From NCBI RefSeq assembly GCF_009765985.1, contig NZ_LMUM01000037.1, forward strand, positions 798,747 to 862,746: 64,000 nucleotides of DNA, written 5' to 3'. The notes beneath the pieces are model-generated. The model saw only the letters and a list, made by a program, of their open reading frames with translations. It had not been told where the DNA came from and made no database searches. The stretch is from Acidobacterium sp. S8 (GTDB lineage: Bacteria > Acidobacteriota > Terriglobia > Terriglobales > Acidobacteriaceae). The first letter of the stretch is position 1. Each line of letters begins with the position of its first letter. A program made the translations under genes and the position numbers. Positions 6,720 to 12,995 of the stretch are shown here, one piece after another.

Positions 6720-6849
6720 GATCGCCGCCGACCACTCGTCAGCGGAATCTGGCCGTCGAGGGCGACGGGCAAGTATGTCTCATTGACCGAAATCTGTAGT
6801 CAGGTGCGAAGTGTCGTTGGCTGGATAAGACAGGGGTGGCTGCTCTTAC

Positions 6850-6891
6850 GACAAAGCATCACCTTGCGCGAACGCAAAATAATGCTTTGTC
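6850..6891. repeat. Nested inverted repeat (cruciform-capable hairpin)
   Basis: GACAAAGCAT (6850-6859) pairs perfectly with ATGCTTTGTC (6882-6891). Inside it TTGCG-CGAA-CGCAA forms a second hairpin with a tetraloop-like CGAA. It lies between the converging DUF1772 gene and dnaN. Neither strand has a U tract after the stem, so a factor-independent terminator is unlikely; an RNA 3' end or protein-binding site is possible. Confidence 0.5.
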
Positions 6892-6917
6892 CTGCGAATT
6901 AACAAAACAAGCCAACA

Positions 6918-8039
6918 TCAGATGCGCATCGGCATGATGATATAGCGGTACTTGTAATCGTCGCTGACGTCTTCGGGGCGCATCTGGCCTGCTGACTGCG
7001 CATCCTTGAACTCCAGCCGCACCTCGCCGGAATTGCCCGTCGCCTTCAGGAAATCGAGCAGATAAGCTGAGTTGAAACCAACCATGATGGGATCGAAGTT
7101 GTAAGGGGTTTCGATCACATCTTCCGATTCTCCGGAGTCCGTCGAAGACGACGAAATCTTCAGCTCATTCTGTTCGACGCGAATCTTGATCGCGCCCGAT
7201 CGCTCATCGGCAAACTGCGCCACGCGCTGAATCGAAGCATTCAGGTCTTCACTGCGCACCACTACGAATTTATTGTTGTCGCGCGGCATCACCGCTTCGT
7301 AGTTAGGGAACTGGCCGGTCAGCTTGCGGCTTGTCAGCGTCCGGTGTCCGATGCGGAAGAAAAGTGTCTGGTCATCATCCGCAAAATCCAGATATTCCTC
7401 ATCGGTCGCCGAAAGCAGCGACTGCAACTCTGCCAGCGCCTTGCGCGGGATCAGCGTCTTCTTCTCGCCGCTGATGTTCCCCAGGCTCTCGCTGCCTTTT
7501 TCAATGTGAGCCAGACGATGCCCGTCCGTTGCCACCATCGTCAGGCTCTCCGCCTTCAGCACCAGCAGCGCGCCATTCAGGGTATAGCGCGACTCTTCAT
7601 TCGAGATCGCAAAGATGGTCTTCGAGATAAGGTTCTTGAGCGACGAAGTCGGAATTTTCGTGACGCTGCTCTCCGGGAACTCAGGCACCTGGGGAAAGTT
7701 CGCCCGCGCCATACCTACCATCTTGGTGTTCGAGCGTCCCGCCCGGATCTGCACCCAGTGGTTTTCGAGCAGCTTGATCGAAATCTCGCCATCGCCAAGC
7801 AGCTTGATGTAGTCGTACAGCTTTCGCGCCGGAATCGTGCACGAGCCAGGCTTCTTGACCTTTGCCGGGCATGAGGTCTTCATGCTCTGGTCAAGATCCG
7901 TGCCGGTAATCGTGAGCTTGTCGTCCGCTGCCTCGATCAGGAAATTCGAGAGGATGGGAATCGTTGTCTTGCGCTCGACCACGCTCTGCGTTGCGGTCAG
8001 TTCCCGCAGCAATTCCTGGCGGCTGACGTTGATTTCCAT
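6918..8039 (-). CDS. dnaN: DNA polymerase III beta subunit (sliding clamp)
   Basis: Ring-forming processivity clamp, 373 residues, the normal size. Three repeated clamp domains are visible: N-terminal MEINVSRQELLRELTATQSV with TIPILSNFLIEA, the middle domain from about residue 125 (SKTIFAISNEESRYTLNGAL), and the C-terminal domain ending in IIMPMRI, the usual terminal P-M-R motif. The start at 8039 matches the family N-terminus and has AAGGGA just upstream; an in-frame ATG at 8087 preceded by AAAGGGGG would add 16 residues and cannot be excluded. The gene lies on the dnaA strand but is separated from dnaA by two genes and the putative oriC. Confidence 0.98.
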   Translation of the reverse strand: MEINVSRQELLRELTATQSVVERKTTIPILSNFLIEAADDKLTITGTDLDQSMKTSCPAKVKKPGSCTIPARKLYDYIKLLGDGEISIKLLENHWVQIRAGRSNTKMVGMARANFPQVPEFPESSVTKIPTSSLKNLISKTIFAISNEESRYTLNGALLVLKAESLTMVATDGHRLAHIEKGSESLGNISGEKKTLIPRKALAELQSLLSATDEEYLDFADDDQTLFFRIGHRTLTSRKLTGQFPNYEAVMPRDNNKFVVVRSEDLNASIQRVAQFADERSGAIKIRVEQNELKISSSSTDSGESEDVIETPYNFDPIMVGFNSAYLLDFLKATGNSGEVRLEFKDAQSAGQMRPEDVSDDYKYRYIIMPMRI

Positions 8040-8159
8040 TGTCCCTTGCGCTGTCTGCTTTTCCTGCTCCACACCTGTCCCCGGCATACTCAGCCCCCTT
8101 TAGGGAATTGGCCACACTTTACACTACCGCGCGCGCAACAAAGAAGCGCGAAACCCTGA

Positions 8160-8625
8160 TGGAATTCATTCTAGTGAGAAAACCCAAAGTTGTGCCTGCG
8201 GAAATCGAGCCGAAATAGTGGGAAATTCCGAAATCCGGATGGAAACCCTGTTTGGCCACCGCGCGAAAGCCCCTATGTTGCTGGCGCCCACTACTACTCT
8301 TACTAAAAGAAATAAGTATCTATAAATAGCAGCCGTAGTAGATCGCTGCGGAAAAGTGGAAACATGGTCCAAAGCCTTTACCAGCGCCTTCCGGCGAATG
8401 TACCCGTTTTAGAAAACTGGTGCAGATGAAACTGGAAACCTTGGAAGACGCGGTGGAAACCTCTTCAAACGCGTCCCGTTCTCCGCATTCTTCACAGCCC
8501 GGTCGGAAAATCGGATGTGGAAACCTCTTTCCGAAAGTGGAAACTGCGTCCAGGCTCAATAAAGAAGCACGTTCCACGCAGCGAAGCTTTCCACCGCGAA
8601 TCGGTTATCCGAAATTTCCACAGGT
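8160..8625. other. oriC: Candidate chromosomal replication origin (oriC)
   Basis: Non-coding region upstream of dnaN. TTTCCAC, read on either strand, occurs six times in 270 bases: 8356-8362, 8453-8459, 8517-8523 and 8537-8543 on the minus strand, 8588-8594 and 8615-8621 on the plus. Most extend to GTTTCCAC, and near-copies lie at 8240-8247 and 8433-8440. ATTTCCACA (8614-8622), GTTTCCACA (minus, 8516-8524) and TTCTTCACA (8488-8496) each differ by one base from the DnaA-box consensus TTWTNCACA. To the left is an AT-rich stretch (about 8298-8330) framed by CTACTAC (8291-8297) and GTAGTAG (8335-8341). The minus strand of 8291-8305 reads 3'-GAT GAT GAG AAT GAT-5', like the DnaA-trio unwinding element. 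Together these fit an origin; not proven. Confidence 0.65.
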
Positions 8626-8640
8626 AGAACGCGGTCCCAA

Positions 8641-8679
8641 CAAAACAATAGCGGGCATCGGCAATTTGCCGTGCCCGCT
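8641..8679 (-). terminator. Intrinsic terminator of the esterase gene
   Basis: On the minus strand, just after the esterase stop, a strong hairpin (AGCGGGCA / TGCCCGCT outer stem, CGGC / GCCG inner stem, positions 8650-8679) is followed by a T-rich run (TATTGTTTTGTT). It would insulate the putative oriC and dnaN from upstream transcription. Confidence 0.7.
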
Positions 8680-8718
8680 GTGCAACATTCCGGTCGGACT
8701 GACCAGATTTTTTACGAA

Positions 8719-9846
8719 TTAACGCTGTGCGGTATCGCTGTGTGAGTGCTGAGCCAGCTCCCAGAACTCCTCATGCCGGTCGTCGCGGTAGATCAGGCCC
8801 CGCACTTTTCCGTCAGGGTCCTTCTGGAAAATAATCCGCGTAGGGCTGCCTGAAACGTAAAAGAAGGTCGTCGCATTTTCTGGCAGCAGCTCATTGCTCT
8901 CGCCCGCGCGGCCCCTCGAAAAGAGCGAATCGCCATCGCGATAGATCGTCGTCTGCACCACGCCCTGATCCTGATATTGGCCCAGGTAGGCGTCGTAGAT
9001 AGCTGGATTAAGCTTGGCGGGAGCCGGGTGCACGGGCACCATGATCTGTTCCGCCATCGGCGGAAGGTTGGCAATCTGATTCAAGGAATGTGAGAGCAGC
9101 CACTTCGGCAGGTCAGCATCGGCATAGGCTTTATCCCACGCATTGTGGTGCACGCTGGCGTACTCCCAGAGCCTCACATTTCCATGATTGGCCTTGATCG
9201 CCTCGTACATGACCTCGGCCTCTTTGGGAATCACCACATGGTCAGCCGCCCCATGGAACATCCAGACCGGCGTGCGTCCAATCGCGCGCGCGTACTGCTC
9301 CGGAAGACCCGCCTGGTGCCAGCGCTCCGGCGCATACGACCAGAAGATGCCGCCGCAGACGGGAACGACGGCTGCGAATTTATGCGGCCAGTCTTTTGCG
9401 ATCTCCCACGTACCGTAGCCGCCGAGTGACAATCCCGTAAGGTAAAGCCGCTGCGGATCCCCGTGGAACTCCTTAACGCTGGCGTCGAGAGAGGCAACCG
9501 CCATCTGCATCATGTCCGGATCAGTCCAGTGATGATGCTGAAAAGGAACTTGCGGCATGACCACCACAAACGGCCAGCGCTCCGGATGAGAGCGGATGGA
9601 CGCCGGCAGCCCGATCTGGGTCTGGTCCATACCGTCGTTGCCGCGTTCGCCGGACCCATGCAGGAAGAGAATCACGGGCCACTTCTGGTGCTCGTTCCAT
9701 CCCTCCGGCACATAGACCTGATACCTGTACGAGATACCCTGCAACTTCACGCTGCGGTTCAGAAAGCCCGTATCCTGGTGACGCGCGAAGGCGGGGAGAA
9801 CGGCGAGAAAAATTGCAGCGAGGGTAAAAAGACGGCGAAGGCCCAT
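8719..9846 (-). CDS. Secreted alpha/beta-hydrolase esterase (PHB-depolymerase/feruloyl-esterase-like)
   Basis: Exported serine hydrolase, about 375 residues. From the ATG at 9846 the protein begins with a signal peptide (MGLRRLFTLAAIFLAVLPAFA). The hydrolase fold covers about residues 30-245: VILFLHGSGERG (oxyanion loop), TGLSLGGYGTWE (nucleophile Ser in GxSxGG), MFHGAADHVV (Asp) and ASVHHNAWDKAY (His). A C-terminal module of about 110 residues (AIYDAYLGQYQDQG, then DGDSLFSRG) looks like a small beta domain. Starts at 9870 (ATG) and 9915 (GTG) are in frame; none has a clear ribosome site. It probably cleaves esters of plant material or storage polymers. It sits unusually between dnaA and dnaN. 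Confidence 0.82.
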   Translation of the reverse strand: MGLRRLFTLAAIFLAVLPAFARHQDTGFLNRSVKLQGISYRYQVYVPEGWNEHQKWPVILFLHGSGERGNDGMDQTQIGLPASIRSHPERWPFVVVMPQVPFQHHHWTDPDMMQMAVASLDASVKEFHGDPQRLYLTGLSLGGYGTWEIAKDWPHKFAAVVPVCGGIFWSYAPERWHQAGLPEQYARAIGRTPVWMFHGAADHVVIPKEAEVMYEAIKANHGNVRLWEYASVHHNAWDKAYADADLPKWLLSHSLNQIANLPPMAEQIMVPVHPAPAKLNPAIYDAYLGQYQDQGVVQTTIYRDGDSLFSRGRAGESNELLPENATTFFYVSGSPTRIIFQKDPDGKVRGLIYRDDRHEEFWELAQHSHSDTAQR

Positions 9847-10093
9847 TACCGGAGAGGATAGCAAGTGCATGCCGCATAGATGCAGGAAAAAAGCGATTTT
9901 GCTGCTCTGGCCCACCTAAAAGGGAGAGATTTTAGCAATTTTGCGCGTTTTCCTGTCAATCAAGACACCGAAGCGCACGTTAAACCGAGGGGGAAGAGCG
10001 ATGAAAAACGGAAACTCTAGTGACTCGACTACATCGTCCCAAGCGCAAGTCAGGACGCATGGAGTCTGTTCCATGCGCCCGGCTCATGGCTTG

Positions 10094-10348
10094 TCAGGCT
10101 TTCTTACCGGTAATAAGTCGTAGCAGGAAGGTCAGAATGACGGCCCCGACGACGGCGATGATGATGGTATAGATCATTCCGCCTTGGCCGGTAAAGCCCA
10201 GTGCGCGCATGATGAAGCCGCCAATAACGGCGCCGACGATGCCGACGATAATATCCATAATCGTCCCATAGCCGCTGCCCTTCATCAGTTTGCCGGTAAT
10301 CCAACCGGCAATGAGGCCTACGATAATCCACCAGATAATGGCGAACAT
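10094..10348 (-). CDS. GlsB/YeaQ/YmgE-family membrane protein (transglycosylase-associated)
   Basis: Very small inner-membrane protein, 84 residues, with three hydrophobic segments (about 3-20, 28-48 and 56-78) and the Gly-rich signature IIWWIIVGLIAGWITGKLMK, then VGAVIGGFIMRALG. AAGGGAG about 8 bases upstream supports the ATG at 10348 over a longer reading. Members are often stress-induced but their function is unknown. It is monocistronic in appearance, between dnaA and the esterase. Family call is secure. Confidence 0.9.
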   Translation of the reverse strand: MFAIIWWIIVGLIAGWITGKLMKGSGYGTIMDIIVGIVGAVIGGFIMRALGFTGQGGMIYTIIIAVVGAVILTFLLRLITGKKA

Positions 10349-10511
10349 GCAAAAACTCCCTTCATTTTCTGAGGCGCAGGCGCACGGAACAGACAATCTA
10401 CCTGCGTTTTGTGTGGCGCCGGAACATTAGCGCAAAACAAAGTGAGTTTCAAGAAAACAATCAGGAGCCCAAACGCGAGAGGATCCCGTCGGAAGGATCT
10501 CCTGATATGGC

Positions 10512-11948
10512 CTAGCTGTTGAGCGTCTCCTGCAACTTGTTGATCATGCGGTTCAGATCCTTATCTGCTCGGCGCTGCTCGTCGATCTTGCCGATCGAAT
10601 GCATGACCGTCGTGTGATGCTTGCCTCCGAACTGGCGGCCGATCTCCGGCAGCGAAGCTTCGGTCATTGTCTTGGCCAGGTACATGGCAATCTGACGCGG
10701 AACCACCACCGCACGCGAGTTGTTCTTCTGCTTCAGCTCGGCCACGCGCATGCCAAACTGCTCGGCCACGGCACGCTGAATCGCTTCAATCGTAATCTTG
10801 CGTACCTGCGTGTCAATGAACTGCTTGAGGCACTGCTGCGCTGCCGGCAAGGTAATTTCAAAACCGCTCATGCTGCACCAGGCAAAGAGGCGTGTGAGCG
10901 CGCCTTCCAGCTCACGCACGTTCGTCCGTACATTCGACGCCACAAAAAGGGCCACATCGACCGGAAGCGTAACGTGATCGTTTTCCGCTTTCTTCTGAAG
11001 GATTGCCACCTTCGTCTCAAGATCGGGCGGCTGAATGTCGGCAATCAATCCCCACTCGAAGCGCGAGCGCAAACGGTCCTCAATCTCAGCCAATTCCTTC
11101 GGCGGACGGTCCGAGGCGATGACGATCTGCTTCATGTTCTCGTGCAGCGCGTTGAAGGTATGGAAGAACTCCTCCTGAGTGCGCTCCTTTTGCGCCAGGA
11201 ACTGGATATCGTCGATCAACAGCAGGTCCACGGTGCGGAACTTGTCGCGGAAGCTCGTCATCCTGTCGTAGCGCAGCGAGTTGATCATCTCGTTCGTGAA
11301 CTTCTCACTCGATACGTAGCAGATCGAAGCCTGGGGTTCGCGCCGCTTTACTTCATGGCCGATCGCATGCATCAGGTGGGTCTTGCCCATCCCCACGCCG
11401 CCATAAAGAAAGAGCGGATTGTAGGCCTTCGAAGGCTTTTCCGCGACCGCTTCAGCCGCGGCACGCGCGAACTGGTTGCCCGCGCCGATGACGAAAGCGT
11501 CAAACGTATAGCGCGGATTGAGCTGCGCGGCAGAGGACCAGTCGAAGCGGCCCTGCTGCGGATTGCCGGGCCGTGCCACTCCGCGGGATGCTCCATCGCG
11601 TGACCCATTCTGCGGGGCGGTGGCCGCATGGGTAGGGACAGGCGCAAATCCGCCGTCTTCGCGAACGCGGACAAGCGTCGGGTCTTCTTCCGCCGTGATG
11701 AAGTTGACTTCATCGAACTCCAGTTGCAGGTTGTCGATGGCTTCCTGGATCAGGTCGCCGTAGCGCTCGCCTACATGCTGGAAGTTCGGCGTGGGAATCC
11801 GGACGAAGAGCTTCTTGCCGTTGATATGGCTGAACCGGGTGGGCTTCAACCAGTTGTCGAACGCCTGTCGGCTGATCTTCTTTTCGAGTGCTCCAAGAAT
11901 GCGCACCCAGGGGTTGAGGGTCGTGGGGGCCGTGGGAACAAAAGACAT
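10512..11948 (-). CDS. dnaA: Chromosomal replication initiator protein DnaA
   Basis: AAA+ initiator that binds DnaA boxes, melts oriC and recruits helicase; 478 residues from the ATG at 11948 (AAGGAAAT upstream). Domain I is about 10-90, a flexible domain II about 90-140, and the AAA+ domain III about 145-370 with Walker A GGVGMGKT (183-190), Walker B LLLIDDIQF (242-250) and an arginine finger in RLRSRFEWG (292-300). Domain IV (about 380-470) carries the DNA-binding signature GGKHHTTVMHSIGKI (441-455). In E. coli the signature is GGRDHTTV; here His444 replaces the base-contacting Asp433, which may alter box preference. Monocistronic, divergent from rpmH. Confidence 0.99.
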   Translation of the reverse strand: MSFVPTAPTTLNPWVRILGALEKKISRQAFDNWLKPTRFSHINGKKLFVRIPTPNFQHVGERYGDLIQEAIDNLQLEFDEVNFITAEEDPTLVRVREDGGFAPVPTHAATAPQNGSRDGASRGVARPGNPQQGRFDWSSAAQLNPRYTFDAFVIGAGNQFARAAAEAVAEKPSKAYNPLFLYGGVGMGKTHLMHAIGHEVKRREPQASICYVSSEKFTNEMINSLRYDRMTSFRDKFRTVDLLLIDDIQFLAQKERTQEEFFHTFNALHENMKQIVIASDRPPKELAEIEDRLRSRFEWGLIADIQPPDLETKVAILQKKAENDHVTLPVDVALFVASNVRTNVRELEGALTRLFAWCSMSGFEITLPAAQQCLKQFIDTQVRKITIEAIQRAVAEQFGMRVAELKQKNNSRAVVVPRQIAMYLAKTMTEASLPEIGRQFGGKHHTTVMHSIGKIDEQRRADKDLNRMINKLQETLNS

Positions 11949-12373
11949 CGTATTTCCTTCGCGCGGCGTCTGCTGCCAGTGATCCAGTAACTCCACCAGG
12001 GCCAGAATAAAAAACAGCATCCCTTCCCAGGTCTACAAGCCCGGGACATTAGGGCGCTCTGGTGTGCCAGGAGCTTCTTTGATGAGAGCAGCGTTCGCCC
12101 TCACGATCCGATCATTTTAAGCAGCAAGACGTGCAGAAAAATCTCTATGAACGCTGCCGATACTAGCACATTTAAACAGGCTTTAAACCTTACTTTCGGC
12201 ACAAATCGTACATCTATTTTTTTTTGCACCAGGGGTTGTGAAAAAGCGGGTCCGGACCGCATGTTTTGCGGTTCTGGCGGGGATGAGGTATACTCAGAAA
12301 TTGCTGCACCGAGTCTTTTTCCGCTCGGTTGACGGCACCCTATTTCATTGAAGATTTTCAGGAGCGCAGTTCC
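11949..12373. other. dnaA-rpmH intergenic region
   Basis: This 425-base gap separates the divergent dnaA and rpmH starts. It holds one perfect DnaA-box consensus match, TTTTTCACA on the minus strand (12237-12245), a 9-base T tract (about 12217-12225), a GC-rich partial palindrome (GCGGGTCCGGACCGC, 12246-12260) and the rpmH promoter. A lone box suits dnaA autoregulation better than an origin. No gene is seen in it. Confidence 0.5.
12266..12294 (+). promoter_or_regulatory. Promoter of the rpmH-rnpA operon
   Basis: TTGCGG (12266-12271), a 17-base spacer and TATACT (12289-12294) make a good housekeeping promoter about 80 bases before rpmH. Strong expression is expected for the ribosomal protein gene. 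Confidence 0.6.
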
Positions 12374-12529
12374 ATGCCGAAGCGCACATTTCAACCGAAT
12401 CGCCGTCGCCGCGCGAAGACCCACGGGTTTCGCAGCCGCATGAAGACTAAGAGCGGAGCAGCCGTTCTTTCGCGCCGCCGCGCCAAGGGCCGCAAGCGCG
12501 TCTCTGTCAGCGCAGGCTACCGCGACTAG
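12374..12529 (+). CDS. rpmH: 50S ribosomal protein L34
   Basis: Ribosomal protein L34, 51 residues, almost all Arg/Lys/Ser/Gly: [20 protein letters not shown], then [20 protein letters not shown] and a short tail. The start is fixed by the family N-terminus and AGGAG about 9 bases upstream; a longer in-frame reading from 12329 is not real. It is slightly longer than the usual 44-46 residues at the C-terminus (VSVSAGYRD). First gene of the rpmH-rnpA-yidD-yidC cluster, in the position universally found beside dnaA. Confidence 0.98.
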
Positions 12530-12547
12530 TCTCCAGCCTTTCTTTCG

Positions 12548-12565
12548 CCTGGCCCTCCCGCCAGG
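12548..12565 (+). other. Hairpin between rpmH and rnpA
   Basis: CCTGGC (12548-12553) pairs with GCCAGG (12560-12565) around a CCTCCC loop in the 55-base rpmH-rnpA spacer. There is no U tract, so it is more likely an RNA-processing or partial attenuation element, which would explain much higher L34 than RnpA output. Weak evidence. Confidence 0.35.
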
Positions 12566-12584
12566 TCGAAATCAGAAAACAACT

Positions 12585-12995
12585 ATGCAGGAAGAAGCTT
12601 CCCTCCGAACGCCATGCACATTGCGTGGCGCGCGCCTGAGCAAACATGCCGACTATCAACGCGTGTACCAGGCGAGCCGGAAGTGTTTTTCTGCATCAAT
12701 GACATATTTTTTCATGCCCCGCGTCGCGGAGCCTTCCGCGGCTTCAGGGCCAAGGGTGGGTCTCACCGCTGGCCGAGTACTGGGCAAGGCGGTCGAGCGC
12801 AATCGCATCAAGCGTCGCATGCGCGAAGCGGTACGCAAAAATCTCGCGCATCTTCAGTCCGATGTCGATGTCATCCTTCATCCTCGCAAGAGCGTGATCG
12901 CTATGGAATTTTCCCGCCTTGAGGTTGAGGTGGGGCGCGTATTTCAGACAGTCGAAATCGCTCTCAAGAAGACAACGTCGGAGCCGCGCGCATGA
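12585..12995 (+). CDS. rnpA: Ribonuclease P protein component
   Basis: Basic protein subunit of RNase P, 136 residues, which helps the RNA subunit remove 5' leaders from tRNA precursors. The family signature is complete: RLSKHADYQRVYQASRK at the N-terminus, RVGLTAGRVLGKAVERNRIK and RRMREAVR (the RNR motif), then VDVILHPRKS. About 15 residues precede the conserved start, so translation could also begin slightly later. Its end overlaps the yidD start by 4 bases (ATGA), showing coupling in the operon. Confidence 0.97.
   Translation: MQEEASLRTPCTLRGARLSKHADYQRVYQASRKCFSASMTYFFMPRVAEPSAASGPRVGLTAGRVLGKAVERNRIKRRMREAVRKNLAHLQSDVDVILHPRKSVIAMEFSRLEVEVGRVFQTVEIALKKTTSEPRA

Follow-up and report, generated by a model that had tools for sequence, protein, structure and literature searches.

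Convergent DnaA-trio arrays at a probable chromosome origin in Acidobacteriaceae

The route by which the second helicase reaches the right strand of a bacterial origin is stated not to be resolved by known protein contacts (PMC10201434). A stretch of DNA upstream of dnaN raises this question in a particular form: is it the chromosome origin, and are the trinucleotide arrays on its two strands read by the same protein, DnaA? It lies in the window analysed here, 64,000 nucleotides (G000:C29:798747-862746) from a genome of 5.44 Mb that is assembled into 38 contigs and 99.99% complete, and whose closest named relatives by dnaN are Acidobacteriaceae. A first-pass annotation had proposed a candidate oriC with DnaA-trios on two sides, a proposal that is supported by conservation, by a single strong match in the genome, by GC skew in two relatives and by the substitution pattern. 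We put the probability that the region is the origin, that one array is a BUS (a basal origin unwinding system, as known from B. subtilis) and that the other is read by DnaA, all three together, at about 0.63.

The trio and box region lies in the 631 bp gap between dnaN (6918-8087, − strand; an open reading frame identified through relatives) and an esterase-like gene (8719-9915, − strand). The proposed initiator acting at the core, dnaA (10512-12020, − strand; an open reading frame matched to DnaA structures), is 2.1 kb further along, and in the ORF list rpmH, rnpA and yidC lie beyond it on the + strand. The names dnaN and dnaA are backed by searches, while esterase-like, rpmH, rnpA and yidC are the names we presume for the others. 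The region had been placed between dnaA and dnaN on the strand-switch side of the cluster; its actual neighbours are dnaN and the esterase-like gene, and the strand switch sits between dnaA and rpmH. A −10-like sequence, CTAGAATG (8168-8175, − strand), precedes the start of the dnaN ORF by ∼85 bp and is kept in most of 25 aligned regions; judged by its letters, it may be the dnaN promoter.

Anatomy of the core and its first array

The core covers ∼90 bp (8281-8369) and consists, in order, of two tandem DnaA boxes, a 5 bp spacer, trios on the + strand, an AT-rich stretch and a facing trio array on the − strand. Box 1, GTTTCCACT (8355-8363, − strand), lies 13 bp from the first trio, and its TCCAC is invariant in a 54-row alignment, A1, made up of the window, seven hand-picked relatives and 46 loci with a profile score of at least 45. 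Box 2 (8347-8355, − strand) is a degenerate tandem copy, TTTTCCGCA, that has one base in common with box 1 and a TTTTC strongly conserved in A1. The spacer ATCGC (8342-8346) separates box 2 from the first trio of array 1, which reads 5'-TAG-CAG-CCG-TAG-TAG-3' (8327-8341, + strand), the third trio from the box being C-centred. The AT-rich stretch (8306-8326) has A or T at 18 of 21 positions, a composition equalled by 0.07% of the 21-mers of the window, and is likely to be opened first. Array 2, 5'-TAG-TAA-GAG-TAG-TAG-3' (8291-8305, − strand), faces array 1. CTACTAC at 8291-8297, GTAGTAG at 8335-8341 and the letters read on the minus strand of 8291-8305 all agree with the original annotation. 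Ranked by a simple trio score, the arrays take the first two places among the 127,972 15-mers on both strands of the window; the score was devised after the arrays had been seen.

Two criteria for a BUS are given in PMC8287927: a box that departs from TTATCCACA, or from the motif of the species itself, at no more than two positions, and a distance of at most 16 bp from box to first trio. The published program requires, in addition, at least three consecutive NAN trios (PMC8287927). On the side of array 1 the box criterion is met, since box 2 has two mismatches; box 1 has three mismatches to the E. coli motif, yet it equals the local TTTCCAC motif. The distance criterion is also met, with box 2 at 5 bp and box 1 at 13 bp. 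The three-NAN run is missed in the window because the third trio is C-centred, giving two NAN, one NCN and two NAN. In A1, A or C occupies all four centres in 52 of the 54 rows, and a three-NAN run is present in 26/54, so that in this register the central A-to-C exchange would let the published rule pass only those 26 array 1 sequences. By its sequence, array 1 is thus seen to work like a BUS with a relaxed centre rule, DnaA-dependent strand opening being inferred. That array 1 is a BUS we regard as highly probable, the binding and opening again being inferences. The Bacillus DnaA-trio layout had been claimed for both arrays; it holds for the right-hand one and fails for the left-hand one, which has no adjoining DnaA box.

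The DnaA encoded in the window aligns with a chain of structure entry 8btg, which we take to be B. subtilis DnaA. The residue letters of 8btg agree with those in PMC10721633 at the positions named there. Of the trio-binding residues, our DnaA keeps E183, N187, R202, K222, E223 and E228, and has D in place of N196.

Evidence for a probable origin

The clustering of TTTCCAC that first drew attention to the region is real. Six copies lie within 266 bp, and six more are spread over the rest of the window (12 in total). Besides the copy in box 1 (8356, − strand), a motif search located boxes at 8453-8459, 8517-8523 and 8537-8543 on the − strand, the last two spaced 20 bp apart as a pair also seen in relatives, and, in the opposite orientation, at 8588-8594 and 8615-8621 on the + strand. 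The random expectation, previously given as ∼0.03, was computed as 0.025, for which the Poisson probability of at least six copies is ∼3e-13; the figure is really weaker because the 7-mer was picked after the fact. Within 8160-8625, four 9-mers rather than three are one base off TTWTNCACA: TTTTCCGCA (8347, −), TTCTTCACA (8488, +), GTTTCCACA (8516, −) and ATTTCCACA (8614, +). The description of the boxes as non-consensus stands insofar as variant DnaA boxes are supported, but the variation is a matter of lineage, many relatives having TATCCAC at the same place. A change in DnaA domain IV was considered as the source of the switch between TTTCCAC and TATCCAC and rejected: HHTTV occurs in every DnaA tail displayed that reaches this point, whichever box is present. 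Across the genome, the 9-mer TGTGGAAAC is found in 33 scattered copies, against 42 for its backwards control.

The region has a cluster of DnaA boxes next to an AT-rich stretch, one criterion for oriC, and the clustering extends to relatives. Up to 700 bp upstream of dnaN, T[AT]TCCAC boxes number 2.08 on average against 0.10 expected, with at least two in 52 of 78 regions. The origin could instead lie elsewhere, for example between dnaA and rpmH, with the present region serving only as a DnaA-binding regulatory region. One exact TTWTNCACA does occur in the dnaA-rpmH gap; against this, none of 35 regions upstream of dnaA (some genes being entered twice) holds two or more T[AT]TCCAC boxes, and the core has all the parts of an unwinding module, from the boxes and the spacer to the trios and the AT-rich stretch. 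On the box counts, an origin at dnaA-rpmH is poorly supported.

An alignment of dnaN upstream regions, which the first-pass annotation had named as a check, gave the same order of elements across 25 regions. On inspection of motifs in 81 dnaN upstream regions, the core was seen in most, with TTTCCAC or TATCCAC as the commonest box. With an nhmmer profile built from 51 of these 81, the core was detected at E 0.01 in 85 of 111 sequences, including 74 of 80 named loci (training rows counted). A 93-position sequence model, R1, gives a single strong match in the genome, at E 6.6e-11, followed by one at 0.38, and matches 155 of 200 family genomes at E 0.1. Among 200 genomes drawn from the class, 43 match at E 0.01, 37 of them from the same family; the six matches beyond it are weak and all belong to one other family. 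In more distant genera many R1 matches span only the boxes and array 1. Since the selection of A1 tends to miss genomes without array 2, R1 and the change counts given below favour loci that have it. Two genomes carry a second weak core match far from the main one, at G179:C1:4877033-4877097 and G303:C1:2541664-2541728 (model positions 17-89, E ∼0.006).

The core lies directly upstream of dnaN in 23 of 23 genomes in which the positions of both could be compared, and in 6 of 7 in another comparison; in clade 2, a divergent group of the family, it lies near the dnaN start. These positions would suit a role for array 2 in dnaN expression, as promoter or leader, and not in the origin. In G158, however, the core (G158:C1:573231-573313) is separated from dnaN by ∼70 kb and lies 1.8 kb away from dnaA, to which it is oriented as in the window, and the match spans model positions 3-84, thus most of array 2. 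Furthermore, the −10-like CTAGAATG lies nearer to dnaN in the alignment, and no known RNA family reached the Rfam gathering score in 6800-12700. We judge the expression role very improbable. G158 is a natural test of the independence of the core from dnaN. Conversely, in G020 the core (C1:1493814-1493895) stays with dnaN and dnaA (C1:1907724-1909151) is ∼414 kb away, while in G079 dnaA is ∼75 kb from the core. Because these three genomes separate the core from either dnaN or dnaA, it is not tied to one gene.

GC skew was consistent with an origin at the core in two of the four complete relatives. In G020, skew in 2 kb bins runs −0.111, −0.097, +0.011 in the bin that contains the core, +0.054 and, further on, +0.13. 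When the genome was split into halves at each of 369 points, the core ranked first and dnaA 138th; the sign changes at the core and not at dnaA, which again speaks against an origin near dnaA. Many of the 40 stretches used for G020 were chosen with an eye to dnaN and dnaA, whereas G202 and G126 were sampled at even intervals, as were the first 20 stretches of G003. The skew of G202 fits the core (12th of 393 splits, p 0.0026). That of G003, which is of the same genus, is weak there (8th of 628, p 0.15); in a finer sample, all 9 stretches to the left of the core were negative and 5 of 10 to the right were positive. In G126 (core at G126:C1:4177398-4177479) the skew does not fit the core (177th of 486, p 0.40) and points away from it; the chromosome, or its assembly, may be rearranged, or another origin may be active. 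Nor could a skew minimum be demonstrated on the draft contig of the window itself, where the skew is noisy and has the wrong sign just to the right of the core (−0.04, −0.09). This uninformative result and G126 also count for an origin elsewhere, a reading that we consider improbable. Over 55 named loci the side of dnaN was the more G-rich in 36 (p 0.013; means 0.000 vs −0.020). We consider it very likely that the region is the chromosome origin.

The second array and what may read it

The second array is what is new here. The flank outside it (8276-8290) has no DnaA box, the best 9-mer having four mismatches, and among the A1 rows a box with at most two mismatches adjoins array 2 in only 1 of 54, compared with 73 of 1080 random 25-mers, which is below chance. 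Lacking an adjoining box, array 2 is not a complete second unwinding module by the BUS definition, and DnaA would have to arrive there in trans or by way of array 1. The three-NAN run is met by array 2, with five NAN trios in the window and a run in 31/54 A1 rows.

Trio character was assessed against shuffled sequences. In clade 1, the strand of array 2 passed in 42 of 109 segments and the other strand in 6 of 109, so that single segments mostly fail (67/109). Clade 1 here takes in every segment that lacks the GATATA motif, 109 in total, divergent ones included; the sets of named and unnamed loci share some members. In clade 2 the strand of array 2 passed in 7 of 12 and the other strand in 1 of 12; one of the seven passes sits at an unusual place. 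The intervening DNA of the divergent group (19 aligned) differs (TTTGATATAAG), and several of its genomes carry a top-strand run such as GAAGTACTAGAAGTAGC, again readable as trios.

What reads the arrays is indicated by their substitutions, which were counted by parsimony on a dnaN tree. In A1, array 1 has A or C at the trio centres in 214 of 216 cells, and array 2 in 205 of 216. At the centres of array 1, 30 of 32 changes over the 54 genomes exchange A and C, the comparison outside the arrays on the other strand being 75/797; at those of array 2 the exchange makes up 26 of 36 changes, against 104/797 in all columns outside the arrays (Fisher 7e-15). The first trio position changes most often between A and G (15/24 in array 1, 18/45 in array 2) and the third between C and T (46/47 and 14/26), while in the AT-rich stretch the commonest change is A-T (115/271). 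One column outside the arrays, column 19 of A1, also shows only A-C changes (5/5). According to PMC10721633, B. subtilis DnaA tolerates an A-to-C exchange at the trio centre, as described by an amino-group rule. Our exchange test was devised after that result was known. That the two arrays, on opposite strands, share one rhythm and one kind of exchange argues, without proving it, for a single protein that reads both.

The absence of a box at array 2 leaves room for a one-sided BUS origin, in which array 2 would be the site of another protein, such as a helicase loader or an origin regulator. A precedent for a second single-strand site at trios is the DRE, the element recognized by DnaD (PMC10201434). 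Moreover, profiles of two loader-related families found nothing in the genome at E 0.001, neither DciA (PF05258; the control found 7 of 14 genomes) nor DnaB_2 (PF07261; the control found B. subtilis and L. lactis). The helicase loader therefore remains unidentified and an unknown one must exist. However, the three-base rhythm and the central A-C exchange are common to both arrays and match the DnaA pocket, and the DRE, in the portion of its description at hand, lies opposite the trios in the same place and is not a separate array beyond the AT-rich stretch. A reader other than DnaA is therefore a serious but unlikely alternative, and we think that array 2 is probably read by DnaA, in the absence of binding data.

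The arrays are also roughly inverted repeats and could be the arms of a hairpin or cruciform. Pairing in A1 reaches 67.7% of cells against 65.8% in shuffles (reached by 3 of 500), and covariation 0.149 against 0.129 (18/500). These values are only slightly above those of shuffles: about one third of cells is unpaired, variation is confined to one side in four pairs, and a shift of three columns leaves the covariation score the same, as expected of the trio rhythm alone. The core of the window folds no better than shuffles (z 0.00). A hairpin between the arrays is thus poorly supported, and we hold it to be the least plausible of the alternatives.

A further conserved element lies beside the core. 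The inverted repeat GTTTT-NN-AAAAC (GTTTTNNAAAAC repeat, 8406-8417) keeps a fixed distance from box 1: it is present in 76 of the 109 clade 1 segments, and 76 of 78 sites lie at −55/−56 from that box, with a background of 0.0027 per 150 nt. None of the 12 segments of the divergent group has it. The sequence GTTTTCTAAAAC has two exact copies in the genome. It is possible that the repeat is the site of an unidentified origin regulator.

Proposed mechanism and comparison with known systems

If DnaA reads both arrays, initiation might proceed as follows. DnaA would bind the TTTCCAC boxes, chiefly the tandem pair at 8347-8363, and a filament of ATP-DnaA would spread from the pair along the + strand trios from 8341 to 8327, 3' to 5' and leftwards. 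By inference from the B. subtilis BUS, this filament would open the AT-rich stretch at 8306-8326. Opening would expose array 2 on the − strand (8291-8305), which DnaA is presumed to capture with the same base pocket. The 3' to 5' direction of array 2 is rightwards, hence two filaments would face each other, and both single strands would be held by DnaA with opposite polarity. One filament per strand could place one helicase per strand, the two moving apart, and the second filament would do the job proposed for the DnaD recognition element opposite the trios in B. subtilis. In a published model the helicase sits around the strand that carries the trios and travels 5' to 3' (PMC10201434); given this model, a helicase on array 1 and one on array 2 would set off in opposite directions.

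What has been observed is the anatomy, its conservation, the clustering of boxes, the skew switch in two of the four complete relatives and the trio-like evolution of both arrays; DnaA binding, strand opening and helicase loading are inferred from these. That array 2 places the second helicase is a tentative suggestion, which we rate slightly below an even chance. Equally provisional is the general proposal for Acidobacteriaceae, that the arrays converge from both strands around one AT-rich stretch and that a DnaA filament on each strand decides on which strand, and in which direction, each helicase is placed, without a second reader of the DnaD kind. Such an origin, with a single-strand code for DnaA on both strands, would be a symmetric and testable answer to the second-helicase problem. 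The A-to-C exchange, seen at trio centres across dozens of genomes, also lends evolutionary support to the B. subtilis amino-group rule (PMC10721633).

Neither trios on both strands nor this origin were described in the available parts of PMC8287927, PMC10201434, PMC10721633, PMC13220808, PMC10316083 and PMC5109545, and nothing was found on the DnaA-trio together with Acidobacteria; subscription papers and preprints were not covered by either search. The trios of Thermotoga maritima and Helicobacter pylori (eTrio, DnaA-trios) resemble the core in that TAG-type trinucleotides lie beside DnaA boxes and are engaged by DnaA, but in the portion of the source available they are given on one strand only (PMC10316083).

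The B. subtilis DRE resembles array 2 as a conserved single-strand site opposite trios that has been proposed to place the second helicase (PMC10201434). It differs in being the complement of the trios, with TnnT repeats read by DnaD, whereas array 2 lies beyond the AT-rich stretch and itself reads as trios. The presence of DnaD as a reader, a further criterion for a DRE, is not met, the genome having no DnaB_2 (PF07261) match.

The core also resembles the B. subtilis BUS, which is made up of tandem DnaA-boxes, a GC-rich gap and DnaA-trios. Both have tandem boxes, a short spacer and TAG-type trios by an AT-rich stretch, and the residues of DnaA that contact the bases are the same. The acidobacterial core departs from it in that C-centred trios are common and the core of the box is TTTCCAC or TATCCAC, and in having a second trio array, without boxes, on the opposite strand.
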